From contig NZ_CAIWTY010000086.1 in the NCBI RefSeq assembly GCF_903915725.1, forward strand, positions 62,001 to 126,000: DNA of 64,000 nucleotides. The letters run 5' to 3'. Positions 18,370 to 58,866 of the stretch are shown one piece after another. Origin of the DNA: an uncultured Rhodopila sp. (GTDB lineage: Bacteria; Pseudomonadota; Alphaproteobacteria; Acetobacterales; Acetobacteraceae). Under the pieces are notes generated by a model, which worked only from the letters and a program-made list of their open reading frames with translations, was not told the DNA's origin and did no database searches. The translations under genes were made by a program, and so were the position numbers. The first letter of the stretch is position 1, and the number at the start of each line of letters is the position of its first letter.

Positions 18370-19164
18370 TTAGGCCGCCGGGCGGGTGTCGCTTGACGAG
18401 CCTTCCCCCGATAGCACGGGCAAGCCCAGCGCCGACGACAGCGGCGTGGGATTGTGAATGATAGACGCCTTTGCGGTCTGGTTCTCGGACAGCACCCGCC
18501 AGCCAAACTTCTTCGACAGCGGTGCGGGTTCATCCGCGATGATGCGCCAACCCGCTCGCGAAGACAGCGGCGCTGGATTATCCGAAAGCAGCTTCCAGCC
18601 GAGCAGGTTCGACAGCGGTGCCGGGTCGTGGCTCAAGGTCGTGCGAGACGTCTGGGTGTCCGACAGCAGACGCCAGCCCAGCCAGGATGACAAGGGTGTC
18701 GGATTGTCGAGCAACACCCGCCAGCCGAACTTCGACGATAGCGGCGTGGGATCGTCGGCGAGCACTTTCCAACCGGCTGCCGACGACAAAGGCGCCGCCG
18801 AATCCGTTGCGCTTGCAGAGCCTCGCGGCGCCTTCGGTCCGCGCTCGACGGTGTCCGGAACGTCCGTGATGTGTGTCTCGACCGGGCCAAAGGTATCGAG
18901 GATTTCGGCGGCTTTGCCAGCCTTCCCGAAGGTGGGAAGAACCGTAACGACGGATTTTCCGCCGCTGACCGCTTCGGCATACACTTTCGCACGGGCGGCC
19001 GAGATGCCACCCTTCGTCAGGGCGCTTTCCGTCGCCCCGGTGTCGTGACCGTTCGGGGTGACGACGGTGATGTGCTCGGGCGCGAAGCTGTACTTTTTAA
19101 GCTCGCTGGCGGCGGTCTGCGCCTTTTCCGGGGAGTCGTAGATACGGCTGACAGTCACAGGCAT
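18370..19164 (-). CDS. Stress-protein-like domain plus seven 16-residue repeats (paralogue A)
   Basis: A 264-residue protein. Residues 1-100 (SRIYDSPEKAQTAASELKKY ... HITVV ... AKVYAEAVSGGKSVVTVLP ... GKAGKAAEILDTFGPVE) resemble the domain of YflT/general-stress-17M-like proteins. From residue 123 to about 254 come seven 16-residue units of the form PTPLSSKFGWRVLLDN, with two 10-residue spacers (QTSRTTLSHD, QTAKASIIHN) after units 3 and 6. Conserved positions are Pro1/3, Leu4, Ser5, Gly9, Trp10, Leu13 and Asp/Asn15-16. No signal peptide or membrane helix is evident. GGAGAGG precedes the ATG. First of three tandem paralogues; I do not recognise the repeat. Confidence 0.85.
   Translation of the reverse strand: MPVTVSRIYDSPEKAQTAASELKKYSFAPEHITVVTPNGHDTGATESALTKGGISAARAKVYAEAVSGGKSVVTVLPTFGKAGKAAEILDTFGPVETHITDVPDTVERGPKAPRGSASATDSAAPLSSAAGWKVLADDPTPLSSKFGWRVLLDNPTPLSSWLGWRLLSDTQTSRTTLSHDPAPLSNLLGWKLLSDNPAPLSSRAGWRIIADEPAPLSKKFGWRVLSENQTAKASIIHNPTPLSSALGLPVLSGEGSSSDTRPAA
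18403..18798 (-). repeat. 48-bp coding repeat array, seven units (paralogue A)
   Basis: The C-terminal half of paralogue A is a tandem array with a 48-bp (16-codon) period, interrupted twice by 30-bp spacers. Repetition is visible at nucleotide level as recurring blocks such as ccagccgaacttc on the plus strand. Units differ enough that the array is not a recent slippage product. Confidence 0.85.
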
Positions 19165-19567
19165 TACACCTCTCCGTTCACGTCTTGAATTGCCGACGAG
19201 ATATAAACGCGCCCCACGATCTCGCGCCGGGCAGTGGCGAGAATGTGAAATGCGGCGTATTTTGGTGATATATTAAAACGAAAATGCGCTCTTGAAACGG
19301 CTTACGGCCAGTTCTGCGCCAAGTGATTATGATTTCAGAATTTTGTAAGTGGCCCACGTCCCGCCGAAGGCCAAAAGGCTTCGGGGTACCAGCGGCGGGC
19401 CTTCAGAGGCCTCGTCAAATTGGTCCCGGGCCAGTGGGCCGGAAGCAACTGGAGGCAGTCTATATGCCGCGGCATTTGCGAGCTGAAAACGGCTTCAAGG
19501 CGGAGGGTGATTGCCACCTCTCCGCCTCTTGCCCGGTCCCGATCCGCTTTCAGGCGGAAACGGTCAA
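19165..19567. other. Intergenic region between paralogues A and B
   Basis: About 400 bp with no convincing gene. The part next to paralogue A is AT-rich (around 19255-19345) and presumably carries its promoter; the part next to paralogue B has the stem-loop listed at 19499-19526. Each paralogue therefore seems to have its own transcription signals. Confidence 0.6.
19499..19526 (-). terminator. Possible terminator stem-loop after paralogue B
   Basis: Arms GGCGGAG (19499-19505) and CTCCGCC (19520-19526) are exactly complementary around a 14-base loop, 42 bp past the stop of paralogue B. No T-run follows on the minus strand, so termination is a guess from position and pairing. Confidence 0.4.
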
Positions 19568-20227
19568 CTACTTGGACAGCACCGACCAGCCGAACTTCGA
19601 CGAAAGCCACGTCGGCTCATTGATCAGCAGCTTCCAGTTGTATTTGCTGGACAGCGGCGTCGGATCATCGCTCAGCAGTTTCCAGCCGAACTGCTTGGAG
19701 GCCGGCGTCGCTTCGTCCGACAGCAGCTTCCAGCCGAACAGCTTGGAGGCCGGGAATGAGTCGCCGGAGAGCAGCGACCAGCCGAACTTCTTCGACAGGC
19801 CCAGACGCTCGTCGGACAGCAGCGGCCATTTGAAATAGTTGGAAACCGGGTGCGGATCGTCCAGCAGCTTCGCCTTCGGGCCGCCGCTGACTTCAAACAG
19901 CGAGCCGCCATCTTCGTCCGCAACGACGAGATCGTCGCCATCGGTCGGGCTGAAGCTATTCAGGATCTGGGCGGCTGTGCCGGCCTTCCCGAAGGCAGGG
20001 CGCACTGCGACAAACGATGCGCCGCGGCCTACGGCCTCTGCATACGCCTTGGCATTGCTCTTGGGCACGCCGAACGCCGTGATTGCGGCCACGACGGCAT
20101 CGGGGGCTTTGCCCTCCGCGCTGACGAGGGCGATCTGGTCGTCGGCGAAGTGGCTGCTTTTCAGTTTAGTTACCGCACCCTTCGCATTCTGAGGGGTGTC
20201 GTATATCCGGGTTGTGATGACGCTCAT
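19568..20227 (-). CDS. Stress-protein-like domain plus six 16-residue repeats (paralogue B)
   Basis: A 219-residue protein, same plan as paralogue A. Residues 1-100 are the stress-protein-like domain (TRIYDTPQNAKGAVTKLK ... AKAYAEAVGRGASFVAVRP ... GKAGTAAQILNSFSP). An acidic linker follows, then from residue 125 six uninterrupted 16-residue units such as SFPASKLFGWKLLSDE and PTPLSSKYNWKLLINE, running to the last residue. Trp10 is kept in all six units. The start MSVITTRIY at 20227 matches the other two paralogues; a longer in-frame start exists at 20260. GGAAG precedes the ATG. Function unknown. Confidence 0.85.
   Translation of the reverse strand: MSVITTRIYDTPQNAKGAVTKLKSSHFADDQIALVSAEGKAPDAVVAAITAFGVPKSNAKAYAEAVGRGASFVAVRPAFGKAGTAAQILNSFSPTDGDDLVVADEDGGSLFEVSGGPKAKLLDDPHPVSNYFKWPLLSDERLGLSKKFGWSLLSGDSFPASKLFGWKLLSDEATPASKQFGWKLLSDDPTPLSSKYNWKLLINEPTWLSSKFGWSVLSK
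19571..19855 (-). repeat. 48-bp coding repeat array, six units (paralogue B)
   Basis: Six contiguous 16-codon units with no spacers; the sixth is 15 residues long and ends at the stop codon. Conserved positions are Ser5, Trp10 and Leu13. Confidence 0.85.
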
Positions 20228-20428
20228 TGATCCGCACTTCCGTGAAAGGGGGCAGAACATTGCTAACCCATTAATGGGGCGGCTTCAACCCACTATGTCC
20301 ACTTTGGTTGACGTATTTGATGCCTGACACTCCGCAGCCAAAGTCGGTGCCACGATCCCGGCTCGCAGAAAGCCATGCCGTTCGGGCCGGGCGTTCGAGG
20401 GCGACGAAAAGCAAGCGGACAGCGCCGT

Positions 20429-20453
20429 CCGGTGGCGCGGCCAGCGCCACCGG
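20429..20453 (-). terminator. Strong stem-loop just after paralogue C
   Basis: Ten-base perfectly complementary arms, CCGGTGGCGC and GCGCCACCGG, with a 5-base loop, beginning 6 bp past the stop of paralogue C. Position and pairing suit a terminator; there is no obvious T-run. Confidence 0.6.
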
Positions 20454-20458
20454 CTTCG

Positions 20459-21307
20459 TCACGACCGCAGTAACTTGCTCTTCACCAGCGTCGGAATGCC
20501 GAGCAGCGAGGATACGAGCGTGTTGCGCGCCAGCGTCGGCAGGCCGGTAAGGCCGGAAAGCGAGGTGGTATCCTTCGCCAGGGTCGGGATATGCAACGCC
20601 GAGGAGAGCGGCGTCGCCAGCGGCCGCAGCCAGCCCATGTCGCAGAACGCCGACAACGACGCCTTGTCGCTCAGCAGCAGCTTGATGTGCAGCACGGACG
20701 ACAACCGAGCCTTCGCGTCGGTCAGGATCGGCAAGCCGATCAGGGCGGTGACTGCGGGAGTGTCTCTGATAATGGCGGGGATACCCAGCAGGTTGGACGC
20801 GTTCAGCAGCTCCGGGATGCGCAATGCAGAAAACACAGTCCTGCCACGCTCAAACAGAATAGGTATGCCCAGCACGGCGGACAGCGTCGCGGTGTCGTCC
20901 ACCAACACCGGCATCGCCAGGAAGAACGATGCCGGCGCGGCCTCGTCCCATTGCCGCAGCGGCTTGTATTCCTTAGGAGGAACGCCGGTTTCGACCGGAT
21001 CGTGACTGTCGAGGATGGTGGTGGCCCGGCCGGCGGTGCCGAACGGTGCGCGGACGGTTACCAGTGTCGCACCGCGGGTGATACTCAGCGCATAGATCGC
21101 GGCTTCGGCCCTGGGAATGAACCCGGCCGCCACCGCGCCCACGATCTCGTTGAACTCGGCTACCGCCGCGTTGGCCCCGGTTTTGTACCCGCCCAGATAG
21201 GATACAACCGTGATATCCGTATCCTCGAAGCGATATGTTTTGAGATCGTTAACCGCCGCCACGGCGTTTTCGTGGCTGCCGTAGACCCGCGTGATTATGT
21301 CGGCCAT
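20459..21307 (-). CDS. Stress-protein-like domain plus about ten degenerate 16-residue repeats (paralogue C)
   Basis: A 282-residue protein, third of the tandem family. Residues 1-108 align with paralogues A and B (TRVYGSHENAVAAVNDLKTY ... ITVV ... AIYALSITRGATLVTVRAPF ... TAGRATTILDSHDPVE) but carry an insertion near residue 50-60 (NEIVGAVAAGF). From residue 123 about ten 12-16-residue units follow, e.g. TATLSAVLGIPILFER, KARLSSVLHIKLLLSD, TTSLSGLTGLPTLARN. The Trp of A and B is mostly Ile/Leu followed by Pro, making this array far more hydrophobic. The start at 21307 (MADIITRVY) matches the paralogues and follows AAGGGTG; 21337 is also open. Function unknown. Confidence 0.83.
   Translation of the reverse strand: MADIITRVYGSHENAVAAVNDLKTYRFEDTDITVVSYLGGYKTGANAAVAEFNEIVGAVAAGFIPRAEAAIYALSITRGATLVTVRAPFGTAGRATTILDSHDPVETGVPPKEYKPLRQWDEAAPASFFLAMPVLVDDTATLSAVLGIPILFERGRTVFSALRIPELLNASNLLGIPAIIRDTPAVTALIGLPILTDAKARLSSVLHIKLLLSDKASLSAFCDMGWLRPLATPLSSALHIPTLAKDTTSLSGLTGLPTLARNTLVSSLLGIPTLVKSKLLRS
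20462..20941 (-). repeat. Degenerate 48-bp coding repeat array, about ten units (paralogue C)
   Basis: Most units keep the 16-residue spacing; one is shortened to about 12 residues (SNLLGIPAIIRD) and the last to 15. The consensus is xxxLSxxLGIPxLxxD, related to but distinct from A and B. Confidence 0.75.
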
Positions 21308-21338
21308 GACGTCACCCTTTCTGTTCCACGTGAACACG

Positions 21339-42338: not shown

Positions 42339-45300
42339 TCAGACGATCTGTCGTAGCATTGACCGCAGCGGATTGCGGTAGCGCATGATCAACCGCCGCA
42401 ATATCGGCAGGCGTAGCGGAGGCAGCATCAGGATCTGCAGTGGCAGGCGGGACCGCCTAGGTAAATGCGCGGTTATATAACGAAGATTGCGATAAGCCTC
42501 ACTCTGTTCTGACGTCGTTCCGGTCTTGACAGCCTTGCGCAGTTCAACGGCCGTGGAACGGAAGAACCGCGGGGCGATCAGGTCGCGGATATAAAACCGC
42601 GTCATGTCGGGATCGTCAGGGAACTGCGCGATCAGCTTGCGGGCATAGGCCGCACGGCTGACTCCCATGCGCGATGAATAGGAGCTGCTGGTGTTGTGAA
42701 TTCGCCAGGCCGATAAGGGCTTGGTCAGATAAACGTTGTCATAGCCGGCAAGAAACAGCCGCAGGAACAGGTCGTCGTCCTCATAGCCGGATAGCTGCTC
42801 ATCGAAGCCATCGACAGCGAGGAATGCCTTGCGAGACATCACGCAGGCGGACGGCAGGACGTACATGTCGTTGGCGAGACATGCGAAAACGTCGCGCTTG
42901 GGATGCTGCGTGTGGAGGGTTTCAAGGAAGCTGCGGCAGACGATGCGCCCATCGTAGTTGATCTCGTCAAGGTTGCTGTATGCCCAGCCAAGTTCGAGCG
43001 ATCGCTTTTCCAGGAACGGCTTTACAAGTTCCGCCAGATGATCGGGGTACCAGACGTCATCCTGGTCCAGAAAAGCGATCAGGTCGCCATGGGCTAGCTC
43101 AACACCGAGATTGCGCGCGGCGGACTGCCCGGCGTTTTCCTGCCGGATCAGTCTGATCGGGTGACTTCGGGCGAGGCGCTCGACAATCGCTCCGCCACCA
43201 TCCGTTGAACCGTCGTCCACGACGATGATTTCGTCCGGCGGCAGGGTCTGCGCCAGCATGCTGCGCAGCGCCTGTTCGATGAAAGGTGCGCCGTTATAGA
43301 GCGGAACGATCGCGCTGATCACCGGTTCGCGGCGATGCAGGCCGGTTCCCTCGTCCTTTTTCAACAGTTCGTCGAGAAAGTGCAAATTCTCGAAGCAGGT
43401 TTCGATCCATGCGTCATCCGCCGTCATCAGCGCCTTGCGCGCCTCGGCCAGGGCATCGCGGACGAATCGCGGCGCGATCAGATCCCGCACGGAATAGCGC
43501 TTGATGTCGTCTTCGTCCGGGAACGCCTCGATCAGCTTGCGCGCATACGCCATCCTGCTGGCGGCGGCGCGATACGCGACCGCGCCGACCTCGTGATTCA
43601 CCCGCCAACGCGCCAGTGCCTTGTCTATGTAAAGGTTGTCGTAGCCGGCATGCAGCAGCCGCAAGAAGAAATCATCGTCCTCGTAACGGGACAGGCCCTC
43701 GTCAAACCCGCCGATAGCCTCGAATGCCTTACGCGCGAACAGCGAGGCCGAAGGCCGCACCAGCATGTCGTGGCGAAGGCAGTCCGCAACGCTCGTTTTC
43801 GGATGCGGTGCCTGCGATCCGCGAAGCAACGATTGCGTCCGAAGCTCACCGGTCTGATCGATTTCATCCAGGTCGCTGTATACCCAGCCGAGCGGTCGTG
43901 CCCGCTGTTCGTGGAACGGCGGCTTCATGTCGGCCAGATGGGACGGATACCAGGCATCATCCTGGTCAAGCAGCGCGATCAGGTCGCCATGTGCATGCCG
44001 GATGCCGAGATTCCGCGCCGCCGCCACACCGCTCTGCGGTTGCGACAGCAGTGTGATGGGATGAGTTTCGCCGATACGGCGAACGATCTCCGGGCCGTTG
44101 TCGGTCGAGCCGTCATCGACAACGATGATTTCGTCAGGGCGCTGGGTCTGCTCCAGCACGCTGCGCAGTGCTTCCTCGATAAACCACGCACCGTTGTGCA
44201 GCGGGATGACGACCGTGACCAGAAGGTTACTGCGGAACGGCTCCGGCTTGCCCATGGCCCCCAGATACCCTTCGAGGGTAGCGAGATTGTCCATGAACCT
44301 GTCGGCCAGCACACGGTCTCCGGCGCGCAGGGCGCGCCGCATCATCTCGGCCACATGGTGCAGGAAGCGCGGCACGATCAGGTCGCGGGCGTAGAACAGA
44401 TACCGGTCAGGCTCGTCCGGAAAGGCATCGATCAGCTTGCGCGCATACAGCATGGCGCTGGCCGTCATCCGCGGCGAAAACGACGCGCTGTCGGGGAAGA
44501 TGCGCCACCGCGACAGCGCCTTGTCGATGTAGACGTTATCGAAGCCGCCATGCAGCAGGCGGATGAACAGGTCATCGTCTTCGTAGCCCGACAGGCGTTC
44601 GTCGAACCCGCCGACGCTTTCGAACGCCCGGCGCGAGATCACCGTTGCCGACGGCAGCACGAACATGTCGCGCCTCAGGCAGTCGAGGATATTGGTCTTT
44701 GGATGTTCGCCGTTGTCGCGATTCAACGCTGATTGGGCGACCAGCTCGCCGTTGCGGTCGACCTCGTCGAGGTTGCTGTAGACCCAGCCGAGCGGCCGCG
44801 GCCGCGATTCCTGGAACGGCTTGGTCAGCTCGGCCAAGTGGGACGGATACCAGGTGTCGTCCTGATCCAACAGGGCGATCAGGTCGCCGTGCGCATGCTG
44901 AACGCCCAGGTTGCGCGCCGAGGACTGGCCGCCGTTCGGCTTGGTCAGCAGCGTGATCGGATAGGCCTTGGCCATCTGCTGCACAATCGCCGGACCGCCG
45001 TCGGTCGAGCCGTCATCGACAACGATGATTTCGTCCGGCGGCAGCGTCTGTTCCAGCACGCTGCGCAATGCCTCATCGATGGTGCGTTCGCCGTTGTACA
45101 GCGGGATCACAACCGTCGTCAGCAGGTTGGTGCGCAGCACACGCTGGCGGTCTTGCTCCGGTATGGACGTTTCCAGGATGCCGATGTCGCGAACACACGC
45201 ATCGGACAACGCGGCATCCCCGGTGCGCAATGCCCGCCGCAGCGTTTCGGCGACATGATGCAGAAACCGTGGAACGATCAGGTCGCGCGCATAGAACAGG

Positions 45301-48300
45301 TTCTTCGCCGGCTCGTCGGGAAATGCGGCAATCAGCTTGTGCGCGAAGGTCATGCGGCTGACGGCCATGCGCGGTGAAAAAGACGTGCTTTCCGGGTAGA
45401 TGCGCCAGCGCGACAGCGCCTTGTCGATATAGACATTGTCGTAGCCGGCCTGCAGCAGCCGGATAAACAGATCGTCGTCCTCATAACCGGACAGGCGTTC
45501 ATCGAACCCGCCCACTGCCTCGAACGCTTTACGGGAGATCACCGTAGCAGAAGGCAGCACGAACATGTCCTGCCGCAGGCAATCCAGCACATTGGTCTTC
45601 GGATGCTGCACAGGGGTGCGGGCCAGAATCGACTGCGCCACCAGGACGCCGTGATTGTCGACCTCGTCGAGGTTGCTGTAGGTCCAACCGAGCTCGCGAG
45701 AGCGCGGTTCGCAAAACGGCCTGGTCAGCTCCGCCAGGTGCGACGGATACCAGGCGTCGTCCTGATCGAGCAACGCGATCAGGTCGCCATGTGCATATTG
45801 CACGCCGAGATTGCGTGCCGAGGACTGGCCGCCATTCGGCTTGCTCAGCAAGGTGATCGGATGCGAGATGGCCATCCGCTGCACGATCGCCGGGCCCCGA
45901 TCGGTCGAGCCGTCATCGACGACGATGATTTCGTCCGGCGGCAGCGATTGCTCCAGAACGCTGTGCAGCGCTTCCTCGATGGTGCGTTCGCCGTTGTACA
46001 GCGGGATCACAACCGTGGTCAGCAGGTTGGTGCGCAGCACACGCTGGCGGTCCTGCTCCGGTATGGACGTTTCCAGGATGCCGATATCGCGAACACACGC
46101 ATCGGACAACGCGGCATCGCCCGTGCGCAATGCCCGCCGCAGCGTTTCGGCGACATGATGCAGAAACCGTGGAACGATCAGGTCGCGCGCATAGAACAGG
46201 TTCTTCGCCGGCTCGTCGGGAAATGCGGCAATCAGCTTGTGCGCGAAGGTCATCCGGCTGACGGCCATGCGCGGCGAGAAAGACGTGCTTTCCGGGTAGA
46301 TGCGCCAGCGCGACAGCGCCTTGTCGATATAGATATTCTCATAGCCGGCCTGCAGCAGCCGGATGAACAGATCGTCGTCCTCATAACCGGACAGGCGTTC
46401 ATCGAACCCGCCCACTGCCTCGAACGCTTTACGGGAGATCACCGTAGCGGAAGGCAGCACGAACATGTCCTGGCGCAGGCATTCCAGCACATTGGTCTTC
46501 GGATGCTGTGCCGGTGTGCGCGTCAGAACCGACTGCGCCACCAGAGTGCCGCGGCCGTCAACCTCGTCCAGGTTGCTATAGGTCCAGCCAAGCGCGCGTG
46601 AGCGCGGCTCGCAAAACGGCTTCGTCATTTCCGCCAGATGCGACGGATACCAGGTGTCGTCCTGATCGAGCAACGCGATCAGGTCGCCATGGGCGTGCCG
46701 AATCCCGAGATTGCGCGCAGACGATTGGCCGCCATTCGGCTTTGTCAGGATGGTGATGCGATGGCGCGCCGCCATCCGCGCCACGATCGCCGGGCCTTCA
46801 TCCTGCGACCCGTCATCAACGACGATAATCTCGTCCGGTGGCAGCGTCTGTTCCAGCACGCTGCGCAACGCTTCCTCGATTGTGCGTCCGCCGTTGTACA
46901 GCGGGATCACAACGGTCGTCAGCAGGTTGGTGCGCGCCAGCGGGCAGAGGTCCGTCTCGCCCGCCAGAAGCTGCAGAGCTTCGATGTCGGCCTTGCTCAC
47001 GCCCGCGAGGGCAGCGTCGCCGATTCGTAAGGCCTTGCGCAATGTTTCGGCAACGTGATGCAGAAACCGCGGGATGATCAGGTCCCGGGCATAGGATATG
47101 CCACGGGCATTATCGGCCGGATAGGCCGTCACCAGCTTGCGGACGAAGTTCATGCGCCCGGCCGCCATGTCCGGCAGCAGCATGTTTCGGTGCGGATCGA
47201 GCCGCCAGCGCGAAACCGGCTTGTCGATGAAGACATTGTCGTAGCCGCTGTCGAGCAGCCGCATGAACAGGTCATCGCCGGCGTATTCCGACAGGGTCTC
47301 ATCGAAGCAGCCGGTATCGGCAAGCGCTCTGCGGGCAATCAAGGCCGCCGAAACCGGCACGTGCATGTCATGCTTCAGGCAGTCGGCGATACTTGTCTTC
47401 GGGTGCGGGACGCCCAGCGTCGTCAGGAAGGAGCGTGTGACGCACTCGCCGGATCCGTCGATCTCGTCGACATTGCCGTAGGCCCAGCCAAGCGGCCGCG
47501 TTCGCGGCTGCCTGAACGGTTCCGAAAGCTCGGCCAGGTGGCACGGGTACCAGGCATCGTCCTGGTCGAGCAGCGCTATGAGGTCGCCGTGGGCCTGGCG
47601 AATGCCGAGATTGCGGGCGGCCGGTTGGCTGACGCCGGATGCGCCGAGCAACGTCACCTGAACACGATCGGCGAGCCGGTCGAGTATATCAGAAACGCCT
47701 TCATCCGAGCCGGCATTGACGACGATGATCTCATCCGGCTGCAGCGTCTGCGCCAGCACCCCGCGCAACGCGCCCTCAAGGTGGCGGCCGCTGTCATGAA
47801 GCGTGATGACCACCGTAACAACCAGGCCGGACCGGGCAAACTCCGCCCCCCCCGTCATGTCGCGCAGCAGTGCGATGTCGTCCCCGCACGCGTCCGCCAG
47901 GTCGGCATCGCCGCTGCGTAGCGCATGCCGCATCGTCTCTGTCGCGGTATGCAGGAAACGGGGGAGAATCAAATCCCGGGTGAAATTCGTCGCGTCGGCG
48001 TTGTCGCCGGGATGCAGCTCCGTAAGCTTGCGCATATAGGTCATGCGGCCGCTGGCCACAGTCGATGACCAGCCGGCCTTGTTCTCATAGACACGCCAGC
48101 AGCTCAGCGGCTGGTCGATGAAGACGTTGGCGTAACCGGCCTGGATAAGCCGGCGGAACAGATCATCGTCCTCGTAACCCGACAGCCCGGTGTCAAACCC
48201 GCCGACGGCCTCCAGCGCCGGGCGCGAGATCAGTGCCGCGGAGGGGCGCACCAGGACGTCATGACGCAGGCAGTCCATAACCGTCCCGGGGTGCGTTCCC

Positions 48301-50543
48301 TTCTGGAACGCATTCAGGACGGACGATGCCACCAGTTCGCCATCAGGATCGATCTGATCGACATTCCCGTATGTCCAGCCCGGCATGGTGCCGCGCGCTT
48401 CCTTGAACGGCCTGATCAGTTCCTCAAGGTGAGACGGATACCAGACATCGTCCGGATCGAGGAATGCGATCAACTGGCCCCGGGCGCGGCTGATGCCCAG
48501 GTTGCGGGCCGACGAAACCCCGCTGTTGGCCTGCGTAATCAAGGTGATCGGGTGACGTTGCGCCAGATCCCGGACGATTGCCGGCCCGCCATCGCGAGAT
48601 CCGTCATCCACGACGATGATCTCGTCCGGCACATGCGTCTGCCGCAAGACACTTTGTATCGCTTCCGCTATATACCGGCCGCCGTTGTACAGCGGGATCA
48701 CTACGGTCGTCGTCAGCGACGCCCGCGCCAAACGGCGCCGGGACGGTTCGTCCACATGCGAGCGCAGTGTCTCGATGTCCGCCACGCAGATATCGGCGAG
48801 GGGACCGTTCCCCGACCGCAATGCGGAACGCAGGGTTTCGGTCGCATGGTGCAGGAATCGCGGAACGATAAGGTCCCGCAAGTAGTACAGCCGCTTCGCC
48901 GGTTCGTCGGGATACAGGCTGGCCAGCTTGCGCACATAGGTCATGCGGCTGCGCGCCATCGTCATGGTGAACGACGTGCTATCTTTATAAGTACGCCAGC
49001 GCGCCAATGGCTTATCGATATAGAGGTTGTCGAAGCCGGCATGGTACAGGCGGACGAACAGGTCGTCGTCCTCATAGCCTGACAGCCGTTCGTCAAAGCC
49101 GCCGATGGCCTCCAGGGCCTTGCGCGAAACCAGCGACGCGGACAGGCGAACCATCATGTCGTGCCGCAGGCAGTCGGAGATGCTTGTCTTCGGATGCGGT
49201 ATCCCAAGCGTGGCCAGCAGCGATTTCGTTGTCAGGGTGCCGGCCGCATCGATTTCGTCGATATCGCCGTATGCCCATCCGAGCTGCCGGGGCCGCTGTT
49301 CAAGAAAGGGCTTGATCAACTCGGCCAGATGCGACGGCAACCAGGCGTCGTCCTGGTCGAGGAAGGCTATGAGGTCGCCATGCGCATGCCGGATGGCAAC
49401 GTTCCGGGCAGCGGACGGGCCGCCATTGGGTTTCGCAATCAGGGTGATGGGGTATTTCTGCGCCATCCGCTCAACGATTGCCGGACCGTCGTCAACCGAC
49501 CCGTCATCCACGACGATGATCTCATCGGGTGCCAGGCTTTGCACCAGGACGCTGGTGAGAGCCTCTTCGATATAGCGGGCGCCGTTGCAGAGCGGAATCG
49601 CCACGGTGATCAGAAGGTTGGTGCGGAACAGCCGATGCCGCTGCGTCGCCTCGACGAGACCTTCGAGGGCTTCGATATCGGCCTTGCACGCATCGGCCAC
49701 GGACAGTTTTCCGGCGCGCAGCGCACGGCGCATCGCCTCCGCGACCTGATGCAGGAACCGCGGGATTATCAGATCGCGGGCATAATAGGTGTTTCGCAGC
49801 GCATCGTCCGGATAGCCGGCGACGAGCTTTCTCGCGAACGTCATGCGGCTTTGGTTCATCCGCGGCGAAAACGAGGTGCTGTCGGAATAGATGCGCCACT
49901 TGGAAAGCGGCCGATCGACGTAGGTGTTCTGATATCCGGCGGCGAACAGGCGAACGAAGAGGTCGTCGTCCTCGTACCCGGAGAGGCGTTCGTCGAACCC
50001 GCCGACGGCCAGGAACGCGTCGCGGGAAATCAATGATGCCGACGGCAGAATGAACAGATCCTGGCGCAGGCACTCAAGGAGCTCCCTCTTGGGATGCGAG
50101 GAGGCGGTTTTATGGAGTACGCCGCGCGAAACGAGATTGCCGGACTCGTCGATCTCGTCCAGATCGCTGTAGCTCCAGCCCAACGGGACTTGGCGTTTGA
50201 CCTGGAACGGTTCGGCCAGGGCATCGAGATGATCCGGATACCAAATGTCATCCTGGTCCAGAAAGGCGATCAGCTCCGCGGAGGCCCGCGCGACGCCGAA
50301 GTTGCGTGCCGAGGATTGTCCGCCGTTCGGCTTGTTCAGCACCGTAACGGACAGCTGCCCGGCAAATTGGCTCGCGATAGCCGCGCCATTGTCGGTCGAT
50401 CCGTCGTTGACGACGATCACCTCCAGCGGCCGGATCGTCTGCGCGGCGATACTCTCCAGCGCCTGCCGGATGAAGCGCTCACCGTTATACAGCGGAATTA
50501 TCGCGCAAATGGTCGGCGTGGTTTTTGCGGCAGGCGGCTTCAT
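42339..50543 (-). CDS. Giant protein of nine tandem GT2 glycosyltransferase modules
   Basis: A 2734-residue cytoplasmic protein with no membrane helix or signal peptide. It consists of nine consecutive family-2 GT-A modules of ~300 residues. Each starts with a strand such as VVIPLYNGERTIEEAL, then EIIVVDDGS (nucleotide site), HGDLIALLDQDD (DxD-type metal site), GGFDERLSGYEDDDLF (ED catalytic base region) and KALSRWRIY, and ends in a ~70-residue helical linker beginning RDLIVPRFLHHVAE. The VDDGS sites fall at residues near 46, 346, 646, 943, 1243 and so on. Module 4 is degenerate (VNAGS; EYAGDDLF). Modules 5-6 are almost identical over ~190 residues. It probably builds a multi-sugar glycan in one polypeptide; sugars and acceptor unknown. 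Confidence 0.93.
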   Translation of the reverse strand: MKPPAAKTTPTICAIIPLYNGERFIRQALESIAAQTIRPLEVIVVNDGSTDNGAAIASQFAGQLSVTVLNKPNGGQSSARNFGVARASAELIAFLDQDDIWYPDHLDALAEPFQVKRQVPLGWSYSDLDEIDESGNLVSRGVLHKTASSHPKRELLECLRQDLFILPSASLISRDAFLAVGGFDERLSGYEDDDLFVRLFAAGYQNTYVDRPLSKWRIYSDSTSFSPRMNQSRMTFARKLVAGYPDDALRNTYYARDLIIPRFLHQVAEAMRRALRAGKLSVADACKADIEALEGLVEATQRHRLFRTNLLITVAIPLCNGARYIEEALTSVLVQSLAPDEIIVVDDGSVDDGPAIVERMAQKYPITLIAKPNGGPSAARNVAIRHAHGDLIAFLDQDDAWLPSHLAELIKPFLEQRPRQLGWAYGDIDEIDAAGTLTTKSLLATLGIPHPKTSISDCLRHDMMVRLSASLVSRKALEAIGGFDERLSGYEDDDLFVRLYHAGFDNLYIDKPLARWRTYKDSTSFTMTMARSRMTYVRKLASLYPDEPAKRLYYLRDLIVPRFLHHATETLRSALRSGNGPLADICVADIETLRSHVDEPSRRRLARASLTTTVVIPLYNGGRYIAEAIQSVLRQTHVPDEIIVVDDGSRDGGPAIVRDLAQRHPITLITQANSGVSSARNLGISRARGQLIAFLDPDDVWYPSHLEELIRPFKEARGTMPGWTYGNVDQIDPDGELVASSVLNAFQKGTHPGTVMDCLRHDVLVRPSAALISRPALEAVGGFDTGLSGYEDDDLFRRLIQAGYANVFIDQPLSCWRVYENKAGWSSTVASGRMTYMRKLTELHPGDNADATNFTRDLILPRFLHTATETMRHALRSGDADLADACGDDIALLRDMTGGAEFARSGLVVTVVITLHDSGRHLEGALRGVLAQTLQPDEIIVVNAGSDEGVSDILDRLADRVQVTLLGASGVSQPAARNLGIRQAHGDLIALLDQDDAWYPCHLAELSEPFRQPRTRPLGWAYGNVDEIDGSGECVTRSFLTTLGVPHPKTSIADCLKHDMHVPVSAALIARRALADTGCFDETLSEYAGDDLFMRLLDSGYDNVFIDKPVSRWRLDPHRNMLLPDMAAGRMNFVRKLVTAYPADNARGISYARDLIIPRFLHHVAETLRKALRIGDAALAGVSKADIEALQLLAGETDLCPLARTNLLTTVVIPLYNGGRTIEEALRSVLEQTLPPDEIIVVDDGSQDEGPAIVARMAARHRITILTKPNGGQSSARNLGIRHAHGDLIALLDQDDTWYPSHLAEMTKPFCEPRSRALGWTYSNLDEVDGRGTLVAQSVLTRTPAQHPKTNVLECLRQDMFVLPSATVISRKAFEAVGGFDERLSGYEDDDLFIRLLQAGYENIYIDKALSRWRIYPESTSFSPRMAVSRMTFAHKLIAAFPDEPAKNLFYARDLIVPRFLHHVAETLRRALRTGDAALSDACVRDIGILETSIPEQDRQRVLRTNLLTTVVIPLYNGERTIEEALHSVLEQSLPPDEIIVVDDGSTDRGPAIVQRMAISHPITLLSKPNGGQSSARNLGVQYAHGDLIALLDQDDAWYPSHLAELTRPFCEPRSRELGWTYSNLDEVDNHGVLVAQSILARTPVQHPKTNVLDCLRQDMFVLPSATVISRKAFEAVGGFDERLSGYEDDDLFIRLLQAGYDNVYIDKALSRWRIYPESTSFSPRMAVSRMTFAHKLIAAFPDEPAKNLFYARDLIVPRFLHHVAETLRRALRTGDAALSDACVRDIGILETSIPEQDRQRVLRTNLLTTVVIPLYNGERTIDEALRSVLEQTLPPDEIIVVDDGSTDGGPAIVQQMAKAYPITLLTKPNGGQSSARNLGVQHAHGDLIALLDQDDTWYPSHLAELTKPFQESRPRPLGWVYSNLDEVDRNGELVAQSALNRDNGEHPKTNILDCLRRDMFVLPSATVISRRAFESVGGFDERLSGYEDDDLFIRLLHGGFDNVYIDKALSRWRIFPDSASFSPRMTASAMLYARKLIDAFPDEPDRYLFYARDLIVPRFLHHVAEMMRRALRAGDRVLADRFMDNLATLEGYLGAMGKPEPFRSNLLVTVVIPLHNGAWFIEEALRSVLEQTQRPDEIIVVDDGSTDNGPEIVRRIGETHPITLLSQPQSGVAAARNLGIRHAHGDLIALLDQDDAWYPSHLADMKPPFHEQRARPLGWVYSDLDEIDQTGELRTQSLLRGSQAPHPKTSVADCLRHDMLVRPSASLFARKAFEAIGGFDEGLSRYEDDDFFLRLLHAGYDNLYIDKALARWRVNHEVGAVAYRAAASRMAYARKLIEAFPDEDDIKRYSVRDLIAPRFVRDALAEARKALMTADDAWIETCFENLHFLDELLKKDEGTGLHRREPVISAIVPLYNGAPFIEQALRSMLAQTLPPDEIIVVDDGSTDGGGAIVERLARSHPIRLIRQENAGQSAARNLGVELAHGDLIAFLDQDDVWYPDHLAELVKPFLEKRSLELGWAYSNLDEINYDGRIVCRSFLETLHTQHPKRDVFACLANDMYVLPSACVMSRKAFLAVDGFDEQLSGYEDDDLFLRLFLAGYDNVYLTKPLSAWRIHNTSSSYSSRMGVSRAAYARKLIAQFPDDPDMTRFYIRDLIAPRFFRSTAVELRKAVKTGTTSEQSEAYRNLRYITAHLPRRSRLPLQILMLPPLRLPILRRLIMRYRNPLRSMLRQIV
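45121..45600 (-). repeat. Near-identical direct repeat inside the GT gene, copy 1 (module 6 C-terminal half and linker)
   Basis: Aligned at an offset of exactly 900 bp with 46021-46500, I count 14 differences in 480 bases (about 97% identity), much closer than any other pair of modules. It marks a recent duplication or gene conversion within the gene. Confidence 0.9.
46021..46500 (-). repeat. Near-identical direct repeat inside the GT gene, copy 2 (module 5 C-terminal half and linker)
   Basis: Partner of 45121-45600. Similarity falls to roughly 75-85% on both sides, so the boundaries of the recent event are fairly sharp and do not coincide with the domain boundary. Confidence 0.9.
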
Positions 50544-51962: not shown

Positions 51963-53369
51963 CTAGCCGTTGAGGATACTACCTTTCAACGGATCCGTGC
52001 TGGTCATGTTGGTGAAGGATATCTTGGTGTTGTCGGACAGCGCCAGCGTCACCGTGGACCCGCTGACCGTGGCGCTGTTCAGGAGGCCCGCCGCCGACTG
52101 CGTCGAGGCGTAGCCGATCAGGGCCAGGGCGTCGCCGGCATGGAAGTCGGTGATGATGTCCGTCGCACCGGCGGTATGGGAGGCGTAGAAGACAAACCAA
52201 TCACTGCCGGAACCTCCCGAGATCGTCTCTGCCCCGGCTCCCACATAGAAGTTGTTGTTGGTATGGGAGCCGCCGGCGTTCAGCGTCTCGTTGCCGGCTC
52301 CCGCGTTGAAGACCGCTCCACCGGCTCCGACGGTGCTGGTATCGTAGACCACGTTGCTGCCGGCACCGCCGAAGATCGTGCTGCCGCCGCTGCCGGCGTT
52401 CGCGGTGATCGTACTGTTATTGGTGGTTCCGGCCGAGAACACGACGCCGCCGGCACCCACGGTCACCGCTTCGGACCCGTTCGTCGTGCCGACAATAGTT
52501 GCCATGCCGGCGCCGCCGACGAAGTTCAGCGGGCCTGTGCCGGCGAACATGACCGCCCCCCCACTCGAGGACGTGCCACCGGACGCGTCAACCGTCTCCG
52601 CCCCCGAGCCGCCGGCCAGGGTCGCATTGGAGCCGGTGAGATCCAGGCTGGTCGTGCCCGAGCCGCCGAACACCACCCCGTTGTTGCCGGACACCGTCGC
52701 GGTCAGGTCGGTGCCGGCCGCCGATACCGTCACGGCGTTGGCGGTCACGCCAGCGGTGATCGATCCGGACGACCCGCCGAGGATGCCCGTACCGGCGCCG
52801 AACGCATTGATCGACGAAGAGCCGCTGTTGGCGACAATCAGATCGGTGCCGTAGGAGTTGACAGTGTCGCCGCCGCCCGTCGCATTGAGGTCCAGGATGC
52901 TGGTGCCAATGCCGGTCGAAACCGTGCCCGCGCCATTCGCCAGAACAACGGCGTCTCCCTGGCCGGTCGAAATATTAAAACCACCCGTCGCGGCGACGGT
53001 GTTGTTGCCCGTCGTCCCCGCAACCGTGCTGTTGTTCACGATGAAGACGCCGCCATCGCCGGTCAGGACGGAGACGTTGCTCCCGCTGATGGTCGTGTTT
53101 TCGGTGCCGGTGTCGTAGACCACTTGATACCCGGTCGGGACGGTGATCGCGGCCGAGGCTAGGAGCTGGAGGATCTGGACGGCCGAGCCCGACGGTGCCG
53201 GGGCAACCGACCCTGTGGTCGTGGTGACATTGGTCCCCGCGCCCGGGGTTGTCGAGATTTGTTGCAGCAACACGCCGATCTGCTGCGCGAGCTGTGACGA
53301 CGACTGTGCCGAGGAGTTCAGCGTGATAGGCGGATCGTTCGTGGTGCCGGGTACGGTTACTACAGTCAT
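51963..53369 (-). CDS. RTX-like, Gly/Ser/Thr/Asn-rich repetitive secreted protein
   Basis: A 468-residue acidic, Cys-free protein with low-complexity repeats: short beta-strand units such as VGAGGAVFNAGAGNETLNAG and GGSTIFGGAGSNVVYDTS, consistent with a beta-solenoid. The end, ETISGGSGSDWFVFYASH then ATDIITDFHAGDALALIGY, matches the C-terminal part of hemolysin-type/serralysin-like Ca-binding proteins exported by type I secretion. No N-terminal signal peptide, which fits that route. No ABC exporter or membrane-fusion gene is in the window. Abundant Ser/Thr/Asn make it a possible glycosylation target. Convergent with the methyltransferase gene. Confidence 0.82.
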   Translation of the reverse strand: MTVVTVPGTTNDPPITLNSSAQSSSQLAQQIGVLLQQISTTPGAGTNVTTTTGSVAPAPSGSAVQILQLLASAAITVPTGYQVVYDTGTENTTISGSNVSVLTGDGGVFIVNNSTVAGTTGNNTVAATGGFNISTGQGDAVVLANGAGTVSTGIGTSILDLNATGGGDTVNSYGTDLIVANSGSSSINAFGAGTGILGGSSGSITAGVTANAVTVSAAGTDLTATVSGNNGVVFGGSGTTSLDLTGSNATLAGGSGAETVDASGGTSSSGGAVMFAGTGPLNFVGGAGMATIVGTTNGSEAVTVGAGGVVFSAGTTNNSTITANAGSGGSTIFGGAGSNVVYDTSTVGAGGAVFNAGAGNETLNAGGSHTNNNFYVGAGAETISGGSGSDWFVFYASHTAGATDIITDFHAGDALALIGYASTQSAAGLLNSATVSGSTVTLALSDNTKISFTNMTSTDPLKGSILNG

Positions 53370-57131: not shown

Positions 57132-58631
57132 TCAGTCCGTCAGTTCGCGCACTTTTTGCCGAAAGCGCCGGCGAAGAGCGGTCCGCACCAGCGATCGGAC
57201 GTCTCCGACATCCAGCGCCAGGGCGCTGACGGCATACAGCGCCGCTCCAAGTCCGATCGCAGCGGCGAGGCCGAACCAGCCGAGCGGAAAGCGGATCAGC
57301 GTCAGCCCGGCGATCATCGGGAGAACCGCCAGACCGCAACGGATTGTCTGCCGCCATGGCAGCCACACCGGGAACAGCGATGTTCCGATGAACCAGCCGG
57401 TGATCACCGTCATCCACTGGCAGCCAAGCGCGGTCCAGGCGGCGCCGAACATGCCATAACGCGGCACGACGTAGAGGTTGATGGCTATGTTCAACAACGT
57501 CGCTGGCACGTAAGTCCAGAGCATCATCAAAGGCCGCCCGGACAGATGGAAGGCATGATCGATGAAATGCGCCCGCAGACCGCGGGCCAGGGCGGTGTAA
57601 CACATGATCGGCAGCAGCCCGGCGACACCGGCGCGAAAGGCTGGCCCGACCAGCGAAGCGGCGACATAATCCGACGTCAGCGCCAGGCCCAGGCATGTCG
57701 GCAGCGTCATTGCCAGCAGGGCGATGCCGTTGCGCCCTGCCTGGAGCCGGGCCGCTTCCCTGCCCTGGTTTTCCAGTACGTGCACGACCAGGGGGAAGGT
57801 GGCCGTGGTGATCGACGAGCAGATCAAGGTCGTTGGCCGCTCTACAAGGCTGTAGGCAACGGCGAATATCCCCAACGCTTCGGCGCCCGCGATCGACCCG
57901 ATCATGAAACGGTCGCTGGTCTGCAAAATGGTTCCCGTCGCAGCGACGGCGACGAGTGGCCAGGCATACCCGACCAAATTTACCAGTTCGGTCTTGTCCA
58001 GCACCCCGGAGGATGTCCGCAATGGCGCCGCGAGCAGCCGGACGTCGAAGAGCGAGCAGAGAATGGCGGCGATCAGCAAACCCAGTATGATTGCCTCCGC
58101 CCCCGGGCCGAGCAGGTAAATCGCCACCAGCCCGAGACCGAACCCCAGGACCGCGTGCACACACTCGATCGTATTGTAGCGCCCCATTTTATTGGCCGAT
58201 CGGCTGATCGACTGGTTGAGTTGCACGAGCGAGCGGAACATCAGCATCGGAAGCGCCAGCAAGGCCGGTAGCCGGTATTCGGCCGGCATATGCAGCAGCA
58301 GCATTGTGGCGAGCGAAATCACGGTGACCGCGCCGGTCAGGCCATAGAAGACGGTATAGGCTTCCTTCAGCAGGCCGTCTTTTCGCCCGGTGAGCGCGGC
58401 GCCCGGGTAGAACCGCATCACGGCTATAGGCAAGGCCTGGAACAGAGACGTCTGCAGCACGAGCACCGCTGAAAACACGTAGCTGTATACACCGAACGCG
58501 CCAGGCGAGAGCAGCCGGGTGTAGGCGAATACCATCAGTATCGAAACAACGGCCGGCACCACGTTGGATGGCACGTAGCCAAGAATTTGCCTGTACAAGG
58601 GTGCGCTGCCTCGCTGAGATATGACGGCCAT
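57132..58631 (-). CDS. Wzx-type polysaccharide flippase (MOP superfamily)
   Basis: About 499 residues with 12-14 hydrophobic helices, starting YVPSNVVPAVVSILMVFAYT and RLLSPGAFGVYSYVFS, the typical opening of O-antigen/exopolysaccharide flippases. It would turn lipid-linked repeat units across the inner membrane. Inner landmarks include TSDRFMIGSIAGAEALGIFA and INLYVVPRYGMFGAAWTALG. The start at 58631 is chosen because it places the first helix ~12 residues in; the frame is open further up but that part is not hydrophobic. It supplies the export step for glycans made in this region. Confidence 0.88.
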   Translation of the reverse strand: MAVISQRGSAPLYRQILGYVPSNVVPAVVSILMVFAYTRLLSPGAFGVYSYVFSAVLVLQTSLFQALPIAVMRFYPGAALTGRKDGLLKEAYTVFYGLTGAVTVISLATMLLLHMPAEYRLPALLALPMLMFRSLVQLNQSISRSANKMGRYNTIECVHAVLGFGLGLVAIYLLGPGAEAIILGLLIAAILCSLFDVRLLAAPLRTSSGVLDKTELVNLVGYAWPLVAVAATGTILQTSDRFMIGSIAGAEALGIFAVAYSLVERPTTLICSSITTATFPLVVHVLENQGREAARLQAGRNGIALLAMTLPTCLGLALTSDYVAASLVGPAFRAGVAGLLPIMCYTALARGLRAHFIDHAFHLSGRPLMMLWTYVPATLLNIAINLYVVPRYGMFGAAWTALGCQWMTVITGWFIGTSLFPVWLPWRQTIRCGLAVLPMIAGLTLIRFPLGWFGLAAAIGLGAALYAVSALALDVGDVRSLVRTALRRRFRQKVRELTD

Positions 58632-58866
58632 CCCCCGATCCGCGTCGGGCGCAACGGTATAGATTTGGAAGATCCGACCGGACCCTCTGCGCAGAATTGC
58701 CTTTGCGCTTAACTGCCTCTGCCCCGAATTGGGCGTGCTGCGCGCCACGATTTCAACCGCGTGATCATGGCCGGTGGATACATCCCGTATCAAATCACGT
58801 TGGTATGACGATCCTTGTCGGAAGATGCATCATGCCGAGCCGCCAAGGCCGGTGGGGGACCGGAAC

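Follow-up and report, generated by a model that had tools for sequence, protein, structure and literature searches.

A nine-module GT2 glycosyltransferase of Rhodopila, encoded beside an RTX-like repeat protein, as a candidate builder of O-glycans

What might a bacterium assemble with one polypeptide that carries nine glycosyltransferase (GT) modules? The question is posed by a gene in a 64,000-nucleotide stretch of DNA (the window) from an uncultured Rhodopila sp. of the Acetobacteraceae, whose genome comprises 6.71 Mb in 111 contigs and is 99% complete, with the window at C86:62001-126000 and the array inside a 212-kb contig. A preliminary description of the window reported nine GT2 modules in a single 8.2-kb frame, and this is borne out, with the gene lying on the minus strand. 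The frame (42339..50543) runs from an ATG to a stop codon with no internal stops and encodes 2734 aa; PF00535 (Glycos_transf_2) matches nine separate stretches of the protein (898 bits against a cut-off of 23.3, E = 1e-273), passing the gathering score of this GT2/GT-A domain family; and a profile built from the modules themselves gives nine matches, each covering 296–299 positions. The repeat pitch is ~300 aa, and the modules as cut, numbered M1–M9 from the N-terminus, comprise 297–331 residues (297 in M3). Pairwise, they are 44–76% identical in amino acid sequence, except for M5 and M6, which share 91% of amino acids and 90% of DNA positions. The dN/dS ratio between module pairs is 0.16–0.43 (Nei-Gojobori estimates, with synonymous change high and near saturation for several pairs), indicating that the frame is coding and constrained; together with protein identities of 44–91%, this excludes a chance origin of the modules. 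Two or three GT modules per chain have been described before (dGT1, K4CP, WbdA, WbbB, A111/114R), and no chain with more than three was found in the accessible text of the literature covered, subscription papers and preprints being outside its scope.

A repeat of this kind may be collapsed or inflated during assembly, and such arrays do trouble assemblers, as those of three relatives (G009, G011 and G031) break at contig ends and the frame of a fourth (G002) runs to the end of its contig. Against an erroneous module number in the window, the contig continues on both sides of the array, the modules differ from each other at 24–45% of DNA positions (M5/M6 apart), and the longest exact internal repeat of the coding sequence is 131 bp, with none of 150 bp or more, so that paired short reads could resolve it. 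Moreover, two members of the host's genus group, Rhodopila globiformis DSM 161 (G029) and the Rhodopila metagenome bin B12 (G024), independently carry arrays of three and four modules, with matching module order (the group also includes Acidisphaera sp. S103, G025). An assembly artefact is unlikely, and we regard a false module number as very improbable indeed; assembled counts, the window's included, may be minima.

All nine modules had been described as complete, with VDDGS, LDQDD and YEDDD sites. Counted strictly, VDDGS is present in seven of the nine (M1 has VNDGS and M4 VNAGS), LDQDD in eight (M3 has LDPDD) and YEDDD likewise in eight (M4 has YAGDD). We scored seven required residues per module, in M6 numbering D41 of DDGS, D90, D92 and D93 of the DxD region, and E185, D186 and D187 of YEDDD; we take DDGS to be the nucleotide site, DxD the metal site and E-D the catalytic pair of GT2/GT-A enzymes. 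All seven are kept in eight modules, among them M1 (49626..50543), M2 (48726..49625) and M3 (47835..48725), all modules being on the minus strand. The completeness claim does not extend to M4 (46935..47834), which is degenerate (VVNAGS, YAGDD, ITLHDS) and fails at positions 41, 185 and 186, having lost the second Asp of DDGS and the E-D pair of YEDDD. It is followed by M5 (46035..46934), M6 (45135..46034), M7 (44235..45134), M8 (43335..44234) and M9 (42342..43334), the last including a C-terminal tail of ~35 aa, basic/hydrophobic and modelled as helical, which also follows the last modules of relatives.

To place the modules among known folds, M6 was modeled with AlphaFold2 from 70 aligned modules (mean pLDDT 95.1, pTM 0.92). 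The model has a GT-A fold to about residue 211, followed by a C-terminal domain of helices at 221–237, 248–271, 274–289 and 293–299, and it gave 433 PDB matches at E ≤ 0.001, with GTs on top. The first Foldseek match is 5hea, 'CgT structure in hexamer' (E = 3.6e-17, TM 0.67/0.72, rmsd 5.4 Å; the title is that of the PDB record, and the accessible text of PMC5063993 prints the code 5HEC), followed by 6p61, K4CP (2z86/2z87) and WrtF. By sequence profile, K4CP ranks first (1.3e-34) and 5hea next (4.5e-23); identity of the module to CgT is 21%. A model of three modules, M7–M9, reached a pLDDT of 88 and a pTM of 0.71, and differs from K4CP by an rmsd of 17–19 Å over two modules. Thus, structure prediction, a check that the preliminary description suggested for the whole chain, yielded a confident GT-A fold for the single module and, although the modules are alike, no firm placing of one relative to another.

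How did such an array arise, and do relatives have it? The module profile at E ≤ 1e-40, with five candidates scored per genome, found a match in 28 of 397 genomes of the family and in 9 of 102 genera, so the GT family is patchy. Within the genus, it is present in 27 of 33 genomes (best E < 1e-90) and missing from the other six (G006, G008, G021, G022, G023 and G027); four of the 27 have it solely as a fusion to a methyltransferase (G005, G017, G019 and G020). Open-frame length was discarded as a measure of module number since it misleads: frames of 683–724 aa (G005, the second gene of G014, G017 and G020) and, judged by coordinates, that of 601 aa in G019 consist of a methyltransferase plus one GT module. 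Module counts therefore rest on profile matches, which give nine modules in the window, five in L027 (G244, an uncultured member of the Acetobacteraceae from another genus), four in B12, three in R. globiformis and G004, two in G012, G013, G014, G016, G025, G032 and G310 (the last from another genus), at least two in G002, and one in G001, G003, G007, G010, G015, G018, G026, G030 and others.

A phylogeny of the nine modules had also been suggested. In a tree of 61 modules from 34 loci (three partial matches were skipped; support is given as bootstrap/SH-aLRT), we found orthology between arrays with order preserved, along with separate internal expansions. M1 clusters with the first modules of R. 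globiformis and B12 (100/97), M4 with B12 module 2 (100/100), M5–M7 with B12 module 3 (98/88), M8 with R. globiformis module 2, which is degenerate, and a long-branched module of G002 (98/99), and M9 with B12 module 4 (100/99), inside a clade of last modules from several species (100/99). The arrangement is thus M1–M4–M5/6/7–M9 in B12 and M1–M8–M9 in R. globiformis: among the three closest long arrays, order is shared and the first and last modules match, whereas the middle varies. Modules 2–5 of L027 form a clade of their own (100/99), pointing to an independent expansion, and the single-module genes also fall into one clade. In that five-module array (L027:3654-8699), modules 3 and 4 are very close to each other.

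Because B12 module 3 lies inside the M5/M6 group (95/81), the duplication that produced M5 and M6 may be older than the species split, or its age may be blurred by conversion. Indeed, in 90-base blocks the DNA identity of M5 and M6 is 96–100% in the second half and 76–89% in the first, a pattern that looks like conversion or crossing-over between neighbours. Farther afield, seven cyanobacterial loci (L050, L052–L054, L069, L079 and L099) have frames of ~870–1200 aa with two GT2 profile matches each, distant from the array family. A search of 299 genomes across the phylum, which lists the strongest single matches and so gives no frequency for nine-module GT2 frames, has as its longest frame among the matches listed one of 2066 aa; it lies in a 0.9-Mb genome (G648:C5:39303-39710) and has one of the strongest GT2 matches of that sample. 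In a plasmid collection, 1333 records had a match, and the three regions inspected carry single GT genes of 286–350 aa.

Duplication raises the possibility that most modules are redundant, i.e. that the gene grew by copying and that only the last module, perhaps also the first, is essential, with the others serving avidity, dosage or scaffolding, or simply decaying. The near identity of M5 and M6 and the many single-module relatives would fit, as would the distribution of decay: in the 13 proteins with a complete last module, a required residue is lost in 7 of 27 non-last modules (M4 included) and in none of the 13 last ones. The excess is not significant by itself (Fisher p = 0.07), and a restriction of decay to non-last modules is no more than suggestive; of 21 further modules, taken from outgroups and from proteins that are incomplete or have a single module, 1 is degenerate. 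Redundancy is further at odds with the eight intact modules and with the constraint seen between modules. Even M4 is constrained: its orthologue, B12 module 2, fails at positions 41, 92, 185 and 186, and the two are 70% identical with a dN/dS of 0.21, against 0.22 for the intact M1 and module 1 of R. globiformis. The two degenerate modules are under purifying selection, which, if they are dead, would suggest that they serve in structure or in binding. We consider it unlikely that the modules are mostly redundant; such redundancy can be combined with either of the two products weighed below, a glycoprotein or a lipid-linked polysaccharide.

The surroundings of the array bear on the nature of that product. 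As had been described, flippase, methyltransferase, sulfotransferase and MBOAT genes are present in the window according to Pfam. The flippase (Polysacc_synt, 57132-58793) is the only export gene seen, as no ABC exporter was detected with Pfam among 35 proteins of the window; the gene adjoining the MBOAT gene is GDSL-like, under the Pfam cut-off, and that at about 40.7–41.5 kb is presumably PyrE-like. Elsewhere in the window, three ORFs on the minus strand (18370-19164, 19568-20260 and 20459-21337, together 18370-21337) are neighbours with similar beginnings; the first two end in repeat units such as PTPLSSKFGWRLLSD and the third in repeats that look related by eye, and the first and third have no Pfam match at 1e-5.

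These genes suggest an alternative in which the array, like WbdA, WbbB and K4CP, polymerises or assembles a surface polysaccharide that is lipid-linked, of the EPS or O-antigen type, and exported by the nearby flippase, the RTX-like protein described below merely binding the polysaccharide or being embedded in it. The flippase, MBOAT and sulfotransferase genes would suit such a pathway, as would the rank of the two-module chondroitin polymerase K4CP as best PDB sequence match and the description of bacterial polymerases that have two or three GT modules, in some cases with methyl-terminated chains (accessible text of PMC11231755). However, a search of 14 loci of relatives (7–21 kb, a span in which more distant copies would be missed) gave no homologue of the flippase, sulfotransferase or MBOAT gene, and we dropped the three as conserved partners. 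Furthermore, no initiating sugar-phosphate transferase, Wzy or Wzm/Wzt family was detected by Pfam among the 35 window proteins, and the neighbour that is conserved is the RTX-like repeat protein. On balance, a lipid-linked polysaccharide is the main alternative product, if a rather improbable one.

What is conserved beside the array gene is this RTX-like gene and, less often, a methyltransferase. The SAM methyltransferase (PF13489, 50825..51856, plus strand; METHYLTRANSFERASE) lies between the array and the RTX-like gene. Among the 23 genomes of the genus whose GT gene is unfused, a homologue of this methyltransferase gene adjoins the GT gene in seven (G000, G011, G013, G014, G024, G026 and G031). 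In five genomes the homologue and a GT module are fused: G005, G014 (at its second locus), G017, G020 and, by coordinates, G019. The linkage and the fusions suggest that the sugar product is probably methylated. The fused ORFs of G017, G005, G020 and G014 are L170, L171, L172 and L185, respectively. A different PF13489 protein is encoded directly upstream of the GT gene in G032, with a relative at the same place in G016, and on two rhizobial plasmids methyltransferase genes adjoin the single GT gene. For some O-antigens, the accessible text of PMC11231755 describes methyl or other terminators linked to the polymerase.

The RTX-like repeat protein (51963..53369, minus strand, 468 aa) is proposed as the acceptor on the grounds of its composition and linkage. 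It contains 27% Ser+Thr and 0.4% Lys+Arg, lacks Cys and has no Pfam match at 0.001; across seven RTX-like proteins the values are 26–28% and 0.4–1.8%, again with Cys absent. The C-termini resemble the NCBIfam families PueAB (the window protein, at 30 bits against a cut-off of 670, and that of L033) and serralysin (L026 and L032), all far under the cut-offs. Within the genus, the RTX-like gene lies within 2.5 kb of the GT gene in 21 of these 23 genomes: in 20 the two matches are 0.15–2.45 kb apart on the same contig, and in the 21st (G001) the gene was seen at the locus, under the threshold of the genome search. It was not found in the stretches covered for G007 and G016, where the GT gene is 1.3–1.4 kb from a contig end. 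The RTX-like gene is downstream and convergent in the eight readable single-module loci (G001, G003, G010, G015, G018, G026, G028 and G030). Of 13 multi-module loci, 11 have it upstream and on the strand of the GT gene (G000, G002, G004, G011, G012, G013, G014, G024, G029, G031 and G032, the exceptions being G009 and G025).

The association is not absolute. Four of the six genus genomes without the GT family have an RTX-like match as well (best in G023, 7.7e-21; weaker in G021, G022 and G006) and two have none, while several GT-carrying genomes have second copies away from the GT gene. The window genome has one full-length copy, its four other matches being partial (E of 2.6e-10 or worse, 33–41% identity). 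No RTX-like neighbour was found beside the five-module L027 or the two-module G310, both of another genus (~15 kb covered), nor around the four fused genes (one stretch being only 5.9 kb); several loci of relatives are short or cut off by the end of a contig, which makes an absent neighbour there weak evidence. We also considered whether module number rises with the length of the repeat protein and rejected this, since it falls instead (Spearman −0.70, p = 0.004, n = 15 of the 21 linked genomes, without G002, G009, G011, G028, G029 and G031), in a comparison that ignores kinship, is confounded by the single clade of single-module genes and mixes ATG-based with stop-to-stop lengths.

Our preferred reading, to which we give a probability of about 50%, is that the array builds an O-glycan on the co-encoded RTX-like protein. 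The multi-module GT, probably cytosolic or peripherally membrane-bound, would assemble the glycan sugar by sugar, with different modules adding successive sugars and the chain linked to Ser/Thr of the RTX-like protein; the neighbouring methyltransferase would modify or cap the sugar chain, and the glycosylated protein would then leave the cell, probably through a type I system whose genes lie elsewhere. The acceptor role is suggested by linkage, which by itself does not prove that the protein is a substrate, and all 23 genomes belong to one genus and are not independent. As for export, two genes of the window genome score above the curated HlyD-family cut-off, and each has for a neighbour an LssB-like ABC gene that falls short of its own; the LssB- and PrtD-like ABC genes are all under curated cut-offs and do not adjoin the array. 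Both type-I-secretion-like loci of the genome, with LssB-like ABC and HlyD genes (G000:C43, about 27–40 kb, and G000:C1, about 76–82 kb), have a GT2 domain within ~10 kb.

The O-glycan reading gains support from the module's top fold match, CgT, together with the action of CgT on Fap1. According to the accessible text of PMC5063993, CgT adds GlcNAc to the Fap1 O-glycan and consists of a GT-A domain and a three-helix C-terminal domain that matters for oligomerisation and activity; the corresponding text of PMC5207161 describes a stepwise pathway, with sugars added to this Ser-rich adhesin one after another by single and dual GTs. The dual enzyme dGT1 (DUF1792 + CgT) of the Streptococcus Fap1/SRRP cluster resembles the array in having more than one GT domain per chain and in acting on a Ser-rich repeat surface protein with clustered glycosylation genes (accessible text of PMC5063993 and PMC5207161), and the M6 model shares the CgT-like GT-A fold with a helical C-terminal domain (5hea on top, TMt 0.72, rmsd 5.4 Å). 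In contrast to the two unlike domains of dGT1, the array has nine homologous modules, with no Pfam match to DUF1792 in its protein at 0.001. Its partner, a conserved adjacent repeat protein rich in Ser/Thr, is RTX-like, not an SRRP, and the sequence of the window protein has no LPXTG end. A Pfam scan of 35 window proteins showed no Gtf1/Gtf2 initiating pair or accessory Sec component.

Other multi-module enzymes share the architecture in part. K4CP and heparosan synthase 2 (8vh7, 8vh8) have tandem GT2 modules in one chain, and K4CP is also among the best fold matches; both enzymes have two modules, and the placing of those of K4CP is unlike that in the M7–M9 model, itself not firm. WbdA (2–3 modules), WbbM, WbbB and ORF6-O7 carry several GT modules per chain, with one module per linkage in WbdA (accessible text of PMC11231755). 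As described there, O-antigen polymerases of the WbdA type have at most three GT modules and an ABC transporter partner; among the window proteins scanned, neither the initiation nor the ABC-export genes of such clusters were found, the flippase standing alone. The chlorovirus protein A111/114R has three GT domains of ~300 aa with different proposed activities, each proposed to add one sugar to the N-glycans of the viral capsid protein (accessible text of PMC7826918). Relative to these systems, what appears to be new is the number of nine modules, the series of one to nine modules whose order is conserved, and the association with an RTX-like protein.

Does module order then store the glycan sequence? 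The preliminary description proposed an assembly line with one sugar per module. The conserved order of M1, M4, M5–7, M8 and M9 and the precedents for one module per linkage (accessible text of PMC11231755 and PMC7826918) favour an assembly line as such; a count of nine sugars fares worse, as M4 and its orthologue are both degenerate and the 91% identity of M5 and M6 speaks against as many as nine different sugars. That each module adds one sugar is unproven, and it would hardly hold for literally nine. In its strongest form, module identity and order in an enzyme of ~300 kDa would act like a template for a glycan bound to protein and capped with methyl, determining its sequence and its length, and species would rewrite this glycan by recombining middle modules while keeping the first and last; we regard this as doubtful, if conceivable. 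On the preferred reading, the array itself would have been altered by unequal crossing-over and gene conversion, and with variable middle modules between constant first and last ones, glycan length or composition would differ between species.

Normally, the sequence of a glycan depends on many separate enzymes. Should the modules prove separable, the array would offer a single-gene tool for building glycans on proteins, and a three-module member is present in a type-collection strain, R. globiformis DSM 161. For the family, the natural series of 1, 2, 3, 4, 5 and 9 modules, most with a candidate acceptor gene adjoining, allows one to ask whether the number and order of modules set the length and composition of a glycan, as they do for the products of polyketide or peptide synthetases.
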